Assembly (NCBI RefSeq): GCF_030682935.1
Contig: NZ_JAUXNA010000279.1
Location: forward strand, 1-34,209
DNA: 34,209 nt
Reading direction: 5' to 3'
Source of the DNA: Polaromonas sp.
Lineage (GTDB): Bacteria; Pseudomonadota; Gammaproteobacteria; Burkholderiales; Burkholderiaceae_C
Position numbers and translations under genes: made by a program
Notes under the pieces: generated by a model
Told to the model about the DNA's origin: nothing
The model's database searches: none
The model's input: only the letters and a program-made list of their open reading frames with translations
Part shown: positions 31,293-34,209 of the stretch, piece by piece
How positions within the stretch are numbered: position 1 is the first letter of the stretch
Layout of the letters: each line of letters starts with the position of its first letter

Positions 31293-33143
31293 ATGTGCGG
31301 TATTGTTGCGGCGGTTTCTACAAGAAATATTGTTCCCATCCTGGTGCAGGGCCTGCAGCGGCTTGAATACCGGGGCTACGACTCCTGCGGTGTGGCGGTC
31401 TATGCCGACGGGCTCAAGCGCGCGCGCAGCACCTCGCGCGTGGCCGAGTTGCAAGCCCAGGTCGCGAGCGACCACCTGGAAAGCGGCACCGGCATTGCGC
31501 ACACCCGCTGGGCCACGCATGGCGCGCCCGCCATCCACAACGCGCACCCGCACTTCAGCCACGGCCCGGGCGCCAACAGTGCAGCCCGCCCCGGCAAAGT
31601 GGCGCTGGTGCACAACGGCATCATTGAAAACCACGACGAACTGCGCGCGGCCCTGCAGGCCAAAGGCTATGTGTTTGAAAGCCAGACCGACACCGAGGTC
31701 ATCGTTCACCTGGTCGACAGCCTGTATGACGGCGACTTGTTTGAAGCGCTCAAGGCCGCCGTCAGCCAGCTGCATGGCGCCTACGCCATCGCTGCGTTCT
31801 GCAAGGACGAGCCGCACCGCGTGGTGGGCGCCCGCGCCGGCTCCCCGTTGATTCTGGGTGTTGGCAAAGACAACTCGGAGAATTTTCTGGCCAGTGACGC
31901 CATGGCGCTGGCCGGCGTGACCGACCAGATCGTGTACCTCGAAGAAGGCGATCTGGTCGATCTGCAGCTGGGCAAGTACTGGGTGTTTGACCGCGATCAC
32001 AAACGTGTCGAACGCGAGGTCAAGACCGTGCATGCCCACAGCGGCGCGGCCGAGCTGGGCCCCTACCGCCATTACATGCAAAAGGAAATCTTCGAGCAGC
32101 CGCGCGCCATTGCCGACACGCTCGAAGGCGTGAAAGGCATCGTGCCCGAGCTGTTTGGTGATGGTGCCTACCGTGTTTTTCAGGACATCGATTCGGTGCT
32201 TATCCTGGCCTGCGGCACCAGCTACTACAGCGGCTGCGCGGCCAAATACTGGCTCGAATCCATTGCCCAGATCCCGACCCAGGTTGAAGTGGCCAGCGAA
32301 TACCGCTACCGCACCTCGGTGCCCAACCCCAGAACGCTGGTCGTCACCATCACCCAAAGCGGCGAGACCGCCGACACGCTGGCCGCGCTGCGCCACGCGC
32401 AAGGCCTGGGCATGACGCAAACCTTGACGATTTGCAACGTTGCCACCTCGGCCATGGTGCGCGAATGCAAGCTCGCCTACATCACGCGCGCCGGCATCGA
32501 GATCGGTGTCGCCTCCACCAAAGCCTTCACCACCCAGCTGGCGGGGCTGTTCCTGCTGACGCTGGTGCTGGCCCAGGCCAAGGGCCGGCTGAGCGAGGAA
32601 GAGGAAGCCGGCCACCTCAAAGCCATGCGCCACTTGCCCGCTGCGCTGCAAGCCGTGCTGGCGCTCGAACCCCAGGTCATCAGCTGGGCCGAAGACTTTG
32701 CCAAAATGGAAAATGCCCTGTTTTTGGGGCGCGGCCTGCACTACCCGATTGCGCTGGAAGGCGCGCTCAAGCTCAAGGAAATTACCTATATTCATGCCGA
32801 GGCTTACCCGGCCGGCGAGCTTAAGCACGGCCCGCTGGCGCTGGTTACCAGCGCCATGCCGGTGGTCACGGTCGCGCCCAACGACAGCCTGCTGGAAAAG
32901 CTCAAAAGCAATATGCAGGAAGTGCGCGCCCGCGGCGGCGTGCTCTATGTGCTGGCCGATGCCGACAGCCGCATCGTCAGCAGCGAAGGCGTTCACGTCA
33001 TCCGCATGCCCGAGCATTACGGCGCCCTGAGCCCGCTGCTGCATGTGGTGCCGCTGCAGTTGCTGGCCTATCACACGGCCTGCGCGCGCGGCACGGACGT
33101 GGACAAACCGCGCAACCTGGCAAAAAGCGTGACCGTCGAATGA
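31293..33143 (+). CDS. glmS: Glutamine:fructose-6-phosphate aminotransferase GlmS
   Basis: GlmS makes glucosamine-6-phosphate, the entry step to UDP-GlcNAc. The start is fixed at the ATG at 31293 because the N-terminus must be MCGIV, with Cys1 as the glutaminase nucleophile after Met removal; GGAG lies about nine bases upstream. The 616-residue protein has [19 protein letters not shown] and [12 protein letters not shown] in the glutaminase domain. Two SIS domains follow ([36 protein letters not shown]) and the conserved end is [12 protein letters not shown]. That last segment is the TnsD target in Tn7 systems, and a Tn7-like end follows immediately downstream. Confidence 0.97.
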
Positions 33144-33164
33144 TGGGAGGGCGGTGCGCTTTGG

Positions 33165-33260
33165 TGTTCCGCGCAATTAAAGTCGTAAACACGGCTCTAG
33201 CATCCATGCGGGTTTGCCGGTAGGCGATTTTCAGGGGCCAATTTGTAAAGTCGTAAACAA
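33165..33260 (+). mobile_element. Probable Tn7-like transposon end with two TnsB-type binding sites
   Basis: At 33165 TGT opens a segment with AAAGTCGTAAAC at 33179-33190. In the Tn7 right end (sequence from memory) TGT is followed, at exactly the same distance, by AAAGTCTTAAAC, an 11 of 12 match. The 13-bp sequence AAAGTCGTAAACA recurs at 33247-33259, 68 bp on, again preceded by CAATT. The end sits about 21 bp behind the glmS stop, close to the Tn7 insertion distance of about 25 bp. TTTGG at 33160-33164 would be one copy of the 5-bp target duplication. The far end and tns genes lie outside the window, so intactness is unknown. Confidence 0.65.
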
Positions 33261-33310
33261 GATCGTGAACGCGGCCGCTGAACGGCCCCAATGCAGGGGA
33301 ATTGACACTT

Positions 33311-33338
33311 GGCCGATAGTGGATTTCCGCTATTGGCC
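33311..33338. repeat. Strong 13-bp-arm hairpin inside the Tn7-like end region
   Basis: GGCCGATAGTGGA and TCCGCTATTGGCC form a near-perfect inverted repeat around a two-base centre. As RNA all 13 positions pair, two as G-U wobbles. No U-tract follows. It could be a terminator-like insulator, a repeat or a recombinase site. Confidence 0.5.
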
Positions 33339-33508
33339 AGCTGCCATTCAGTTTTCGCCGCTGGATGCCTGCGCAGGGCTGCGGACGAGTCACCCAGGGC
33401 AACCGCATCAAAGCTGATGTTCAGTCAACAAACTTGGGGAAAGACAATTAAACCGATCATCCGTCGATCTTTAGGTAGGATCGAGACAATTCACTTTCCG
33501 CCGATCTT

Positions 33509-34209
33509 GTGGCGCCAAATTTGCAGTCGTTCAACATCGTCCAAGTACCAGAAAACGCCGCAGAGAAAACTGAGCAGCTCGGTACAAAATTCAAGTTTTG
33601 GTATCACGACCGAAGCTACGGCATTGCCTTGTTCAAAGAGGGGCGACCAGGAACAGGTGAAAACTGGGCAGAAAAAATTGCCTGTGAACTTGCCACCTTG
33701 CTGAGCCTCCCTCACGCGCACTACGAGTTGGCACAATTTGGCAAAAGAAATGGGGTCATGGGAGTTTCGCTAGTGTCCGGAGGCGCCAGACTGGTCCACG
33801 GGAATGAATTGCTGTCAGCGTATGTTGCCGACTATGGTCACACGGACGCTAAGTTGTATCGTAGAAGGGAGCATACGCTACGGCGGGTGGTGGGATACTT
33901 AAAGGCCAGTGCAGAAATACTGGGCGCTCCATATGGTTTTCAGCGAACTGATAGCATTCGCAATGCTTTAGATGTTTTCATTGGGTATCTGATGTTTGAC
34001 TGTTGGATCGCCAACCAAGATCGTCATGATCAAAACTGGGCGGTGCTTCGTACGAGTGATGGCAACAGCTATCTCGCTGCAACGTTTGATCATGGGTCTA
34101 GCATGGGGCGCAACGAATCGGATATTAAGCGCCAAAGGATGCTCGACACCAAGGATTTAGGACAGCACATTTCAGCGTACGCAACTAAAGCCCGTTCTGC
34201 CCTTTATCC
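33509..34209 (+). CDS. HipA-like kinase-domain protein, 3' end outside the window
   Basis: The open frame begins after a stop at 33476 and continues past the window end. The N-terminal part has EQLGTKFKFWYHD, ALFKEGRPGTGENWAEKIACELATLL (ATP-binding lysine region) and ARLVHGNELL. The catalytic loop reads WIANQDRHDQNWAVLR (the N-x-D-R-H-x-x-N type), followed by the metal-binding ATFDHGSSMGRNE. This is the HipA/phosphatidylinositol-kinase-like fold seen in stand-alone HipA-domain proteins of mobile regions. There is no ATG near the start, so GTG at 33509 or TTG at 33521 is likely. Codon use is distinctly more AT-rich than the rest of the window. The substrate is unknown, and no HipB-like antitoxin is visible upstream. 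Confidence 0.8.
   Translation, partial: MAPNLQSFNIVQVPENAAEKTEQLGTKFKFWYHDRSYGIALFKEGRPGTGENWAEKIACELATLLSLPHAHYELAQFGKRNGVMGVSLVSGGARLVHGNELLSAYVADYGHTDAKLYRRREHTLRRVVGYLKASAEILGAPYGFQRTDSIRNALDVFIGYLMFDCWIANQDRHDQNWAVLRTSDGNSYLAATFDHGSSMGRNESDIKRQRMLDTKDLGQHISAYATKARSALY

Follow-up and report, generated by a model that had tools for sequence, protein, structure and literature searches.

A very probable glmS-facing end of a Tn7-like element in Polaromonas sp. and the family of ends related to it

The end behind glmS and its occurrence in Polaromonas

The window, i.e. the whole stretch of DNA analyzed here, is one entire contig (34,209 bp) of a Polaromonas sp. genome of 3.59 Mb (403 contigs, 89% complete). 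Its last part contains glmS and the features collected in Table 1. The contig stops 1.04 kb into the putative element, inside a kinase gene, and the far end and the transposition genes would lie beyond it.

Table 1. Features at the right side of the window (positions of the window)
Feature	Position	Strand	Remarks
glmS, 616 aa	31293..33143	+	Pfam SIS and GATase domains
TTTGG, expected place of the 5-bp target duplication	33160..33164		assigned by position alone; a second copy would fall beyond the contig
Putative element tip TGTTCCGCGCAATTAAAGTCGTAAAC with first TnsB-like site (33179-33190)	33165..33190	+	weight-matrix score 45.9; starts at the 22nd base past the stop
Second TnsB-like site, 68 bp past the first	33247..33258	+	exact copy; the 0,68 layout recurs among other ends
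Conserved subterminal stretch of the glmS-facing (B) end	33176..33308	+	94.7% identity over 133 bp to the end of Rhodoferax ferrireducens OTU1
Hairpin, 14-bp stem and 4-base loop	33309..33340	+	-24.3 kcal/mol, z -7.0
HipA-like kinase gene, putative first cargo gene, 3' end beyond the contig	33509..34207	+	PADLOC PDC-M03A match

The 3' end of glmS is, by analogy with Tn7, the expected binding site of TnsD. The 21 bases after its stop (33143) read TGGGAGGGCGGTGCGCTTTGG and are followed by TGTTCCGCGCAATTAAAGTCGTAAAC from 33165 onward. At both TnsB-like sites the 12-mer AAAGTCGTAAAC is exact, the exact repeat common to the paired sites has 14 bp, and no further exact copy of AAAGTCGTAAAC was found elsewhere in the 3.59 Mb of the own genome. 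The pattern TGT-N11-AAAGTCNTAAAC, which we take, following the preliminary description, to be that of the right end of Tn7, is found once in the window. A first-order Markov model predicts 3.2e-5 occurrences for the window and 2.7e-8 for the 60 bp downstream of glmS. This confirms the TGT at 33165 with a site after 11 bases and a second copy, as well as the claim that the spacing, together with the distance of some 21 bp from the stop, is hardly due to chance. With two mismatches allowed, 20 of 100 shuffles reach the two matches of the window, which is unremarkable; the improbable part of the paired sites is their exactness and place and not a loose count of matches. The GC content is 0.595-0.73 over glmS (200-bp steps from 31400 to 33000) and 0.45-0.58 from 33200 onward. 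This means that the shift to AT-rich DNA noticed earlier is a real drop in GC, but a modest one. The hairpin is shared with Rhodoferax KJN.1 (L210), where paired changes occur on both arms, and the sequence of R. ferrireducens (L142) diverges directly before the hairpin position.

A comparison of the locus with relatives had been named as a test that could refute a transposon end. The 3' segment of glmS matched 75 of 87 genomes of the genus, and 78 loci were examined, which after subtraction of six duplicate fetches and one locus of another genus gives 71, with downstream DNA varying from 178 bp to 2 kb per locus. An end of the family described below is present at 20 of these 71 loci at a score of at least 10, including two weak ones (10.5 and 14.5). 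Ten of the ends are located 17-25 bp past the stop, nine farther away (40-290 bp) in the same orientation and one, in strain JS666, is reversed at 519 bp. At the other 51 loci no family end was found, and these include the locus with the most similar glmS 3' segment (94%; G084, 868 bp of downstream DNA). Therefore, the end represents an insertion and not ordinary DNA behind glmS, and the earlier proposal of a Tn7-like end has come through this comparison.

Some glmS loci show further peculiarities. The terminal 33 nt of glmS, which include the stop, are repeated behind the gene in 12 of 76 loci (six of the 76 being duplicate fetches; L026, L027, L104, L224, L239, L252, L253, L271, L274, L275, L276 and L280), mostly 110-140 bp apart, with 0 of 1520 in a shuffled-tail control. 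In L026, L027 and L104 a family end starts 25-28 bp past the last of these copies, as if the copy had served as attTn7. Other Tn7R-like repeat arrays behind glmS are built from AATAAAGTCCGTCGG, AATAAAGGGTGTCAA or AATAAAGT..GAGA (L061, L031, L270, L211, L036, L245), and some of these arrays of other families bracket a second type of TnsABCD.

A family of ends and the units between them

Search with positions 33144-33520 by blastn matched 23 of 149 genomes and a 24-base pattern with up to three mismatches matched 26 of 149 (the own genome included in both counts), while the reversed control pattern matched once. An exact 25-base pattern was found in 49 stretches of named genomes from Polaromonas, Rhodoferax, Curvibacter, Variovorax, Pseudorhodoferax, Diaphorobacter, Hylemonella and Xylophilus, together with Bordetella ansorpii and metagenome-assembled genomes labelled Sulfuricaulis, Ralstonia and others; glmS is present in 19 of the 49 (tblastn). 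With a 26-base weight matrix built from 52 ends, the number of matches in 120 loci (1.12 Mb) was 92 at score 12 and fell only to 88 at score 20, and all loci examined contain 97 distinct ends at score 15.

The tip of these 97 ends is TAT in 65, TGT, as in the window, in 18 and different in 14. Their commonest layouts have sites at 0 and 68 (36 ends), a single site (29) or sites at 0, 20 and 88 (15). Two end types can be distinguished, namely B, which faces glmS, and A, the far end, the labels resting on short inner motifs and many of the 97 ends carrying neither. The closest relative of the window end is the one behind glmS of R. ferrireducens OTU1 (L142), followed by an end of Rhodoferax KJN.1 (L210; 88.5% over 113 bp). 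Compared with L142 the window copy is without exactly the 20-bp site unit. It has two exact predicted TnsB-like sites; relatives have up to three. The 68-bp spacing that had been contrasted with the close packing of Tn7R thus holds for the window copy, but many relatives' ends add a site 20 bp in. Back-to-back ends occur as well; they are separated by 5 bp (CAAGC) in Polaromonas sp. OV174, by 4 bp in L038 and by 2 bp in L210.

Within all loci examined, 14 inverted end pairs lie less than 25 kb apart. Identical 5-bp flanks surround eight of these closed units, compared with 3 of 182 mispaired flanks in the control: L018 (0.65 kb, ACTAC), L081 (1.7 kb, ATTGA), L297 (2.9 kb, GAAGG), L079 (6.4 kb, CCAGC), L296 (9.1 kb, GAAGG), L026 behind glmS (12.1 kb, GCACT), L294 behind glmS of Rhodoferax sp. 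U2-2l (14.8 kb, AACAC) and L078 (15.0 kb, GCCGG). The remaining six have no matching 5-bp flanks. Two of them, L149 and L158 (corresponding in place to L023 and L024), share the far-end sequence and a neighboring gene family and differ in cargo, which makes an exchange of cargo between the ends possible. A search within 400 bp of 10 insertion sites gave no tRNA. As the search for closed units had an upper limit of 25 kb and used pieces no longer than 20 kb, small units are favored in these numbers and larger autonomous ones under-counted.

Six named genomes (Pseudorhodoferax, Diaphorobacter, two Variovorax, a Ralstonia metagenome-assembled genome and Bordetella ansorpii; L122, L123, L138, L143, L150, L163) are alike in this end and in its flank, ACGGTGGC. 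Longer stretches from three of the six (L299, L300, L309) have an ORF layout in common, and the ACGGTGGC-flanked copies probably represent a single island that was moved in its entirety.

Transposition genes and cargo

Search by tblastn with 44 tns proteins revealed no homologue in any of the 14 closed units and matched all four control stretches. Likewise, two TnsB profiles found no match in the 14 units, and 40 ORFs from nine of them contain no Pfam transposase domain; eight of the 40, including a 1111-aa protein in L079, matched no Pfam family at all. For the other five units the check consisted solely of homology searches with the tns genes known from this analysis.

Genes for TnsA, TnsB, TnsC, TnsD and a second TniQ-family protein are found in three genomes. 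In Polaromonas G064 (L058, L059) and Rhodoferax U11-2br (L186) they lie inside the end behind glmS, in Rhodoferax KJN.1 (L210, L187) inside one of type A. TnsA, TnsB and TnsC are encoded on one strand, the second TniQ and TnsD on the other. Rhodoferax BP02 (G171), with its end 24 bases past the glmS stop, shows TnsD and TniQ before the contig stops. The gene names are based on Pfam for part of the G064 set, on a TnsD model over its cut-off in G064, on tblastn elsewhere and on profiles compared with solved structures. In that comparison the proteins of Tn7 itself were the best solved matches (TnsA 1.6e-14, TnsB 1.5e-60, TnsC 7.3e-28, TnsD 4.4e-15). The TnsB profile contains L070 as a distant row (24% identity), and a row of the other type, L060, is part of the TnsD profile. 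Some tnsB genes give no Pfam transposase match and their identity was settled by profile comparison. D337, D425 and E460 are invariant in the four TnsBs; their counterparts in the alignment with Tn7 TnsB are D, D and E, which we take to be its catalytic residues. A structure prediction for TnsB from a four-row alignment (mean pLDDT 33.9) was too poor to be used.

In the own genome, 89% complete, no match was obtained with TniQ, TnsD, TnsA_N or the TnsB profile; TnsC_Int and TnsA_C were silent there and in 14 of 14 control genomes as well and are uninformative. TnsD exceeds the family cut-off in four of the 26 end-bearing genomes (G064, G075, G088 and, as a fragment, G080). The second TnsABCD type (G075, G088 and contig C8 of G150) sits between ends of other families, and its TnsB matches Tn7 TnsB at 1.1e-5 only. 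The three second-type glmS loci also bear an end of the described family, so that they contain nested elements. As a candidate mover, the TnsABCD of G075 and G088 (L060 type) was dropped, since its genes lie between other families' ends (AATAAAGTCCGTCGG in G075 and contig C8 of G150, AATAAAGGGTGTCAA in G088, where the far side has a single copy with two mismatches). A repeat search beside tnsA gave a different site array for L070 and, in the stretches searched, nothing like the ends of the described family. No contig of any genome shows both family ends with tns genes between them, and the link of the first TnsABCD type to the ends is therefore a consistent association and not a proof.

Besides tns genes, recombinase-like genes were seen at two places. 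In Polaromonas G080 runs of adjacent related ORFs cluster together (L032 4295-12560, L035 3911-7114), and two scanned ORFs of L032 are recombinases of the phage-integrase type; such runs may resemble recombinase-in-trio elements. The tyrosine recombinases near L032 were set aside as movers because of the 5-bp duplications. In L060 (4964-6825) a tyrosine-recombinase-like gene adjoins a short TniQ gene beside tnsABC and might be compared with the TnsF selectors mentioned in the excerpted text of PMC10293859.

The first gene within the window end looks like a candidate phage-defense kinase, judged from its sequence. It matches PADLOC PDC-M03A with E 2e-90 over model positions 3-226 of 305 (224 positions, the rest falling beyond the contig) and the solved CtkA (PDB 3akj) with E 7.8e-4, and reaches 21.6 bits with Pfam HipA_C, below the cut-off of 30.5. 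No relatives were found in the loci examined, apart from the window's own copies, or in viral contigs; seven plasmid records contain relatives with less than 60% identity. Other defense-like genes inside relatives' ends encode a capP-like peptidase (L042) and a DNA methyltransferase (L023). Metabolic cargo includes, in L078, tannase and acyl-CoA genes, in L296 a DctM/DctP transporter and in L294 genes for an esterase, an alcohol dehydrogenase and YcaO.

Interpretation and comparison with known systems

Positions 33165-34209 very probably represent the glmS-facing end and the first kilobase of a Tn7-like cut-and-paste element at attTn7. According to the excerpted text of PMC2918618, insertion of Tn7 is guided by TnsD, which binds the end of glmS; it takes place some 20 bp beyond the stop of this gene, always in one orientation, and produces a 5-bp duplication. 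The window fits the visible part of these rules, and the relatives fit the remainder. By analogy with Tn7, TnsD would bind the 3' end of glmS and TnsC would link this site to a position some 20 bp beyond the stop, whereupon TnsA together with TnsB, bound at the AAAGTCGTAAAC sites, would cut the element from its donor and join it here, leaving a 5-bp duplication. The relatives' TnsA/B/C/D would act on the described ends in this way, with TnsB binding the predicted sites, and we infer a Tn7-like route also for the window copy. Against this explanation speak the prevalence of TAT tips, with only 18 of 97 ends showing the TGT of Tn7, and the three TnsABCD sets of the other type, between ends of other families, at glmS loci that also bear an end of the described family. 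The six of 14 closed units with unmatched flanks count against it as well, and so do the missing far end and tns genes on the window contig and the lack, in all genomes, of a contig with tns genes between two family ends.

That the sequence is no transposon end at all and represents another repeat behind glmS, such as a regulatory repeat or an integrase site, is hardly conceivable: the tyrosine-recombinase genes near some ends (L032) would suit it, but it is contradicted by inverted pairs that 5-bp duplications flank in unrelated places and by the lack of a detectable end at 51 of the 71 glmS loci. Much less extreme, yet still improbable, is a leftover, i.e. one end of a former Tn7-like element that has lost its far end and tns genes and is immobile now. 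Isolated ends such as the reversed one of JS666 do exist, the own genome gave no tns match, and the window end has lost the 20-bp unit compared with L142; on the other hand, its tip and both sites are exact, and the own genome is incomplete and fragmented.

Opinion may be evenly divided on whether the window element is a cargo unit without transposase, moved in trans by the TnsABCD of another element. The closed units, none of the 14 with tns homologues and eight with perfect duplications, favor this, as does TnsD being over the cut-off in only four of 26 end-bearing genomes, one of them with a fragment. But the search below 25 kb in pieces of at most 20 kb disfavors units that carry tns genes, five of the 14 were checked by homology to known tns genes only, and the window's own unit is not closed. 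The preferred reading of a Tn7-like element at attTn7 concerns a known kind of element. Beyond it, we suggest, with arguments for and against in balance, that Polaromonas, Rhodoferax and relatives host multi-copy Tn7-like cargo islands (closed at 0.65-15 kb, with perfect duplications) that keep only two ends and are moved in trans by the TnsABCD of a few autonomous relatives into attTn7 and unrelated sites, in some cases in tandem, and that the window's end with its defense-like kinase is one of them. A search by ends makes trans-mobilization by Tn7-like systems directly testable and connects the glmS hotspot of environmental beta-proteobacteria with defense-like and metabolic cargo. Among open-licence papers we recognized no description of this family of ends, whose tips are mostly TAT, or of many closed units without tns genes.

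With Tn7 (attTn7, TnsABC plus TnsD) the family shares the place and orientation behind glmS, the 5-bp duplication seen in relatives and the best solved protein matches. In contrast with Tn7, its tips are mostly TAT, its sites are spaced by 68 bp, tnsA lies distal to glmS, two TniQ-family proteins are encoded and many closed units lack tns genes. Dual tniQ-tnsD Tn7-like transposons (Faure et al. 2023, PMC10293859, as far as excerpted) resemble L059, L186, L187 and L188 in having TnsD and a second TniQ-family protein. They differ from the arrangement reported here, in which the genes of TnsABC and of TniQ-TnsD are on opposite strands, and the excerpted text does not mention Rhodoferax. The survey of Tn7-like cargo (Benler et al. 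2021, PMC8649781), in its excerpted part, likewise describes TnsB-site arrays that bound varied cargo including defense genes. It scans around tnsB, however, so that units without a nearby tnsB would not enter, whereas a search based on the ends reveals mobile islands that such a tnsB-first survey would miss.
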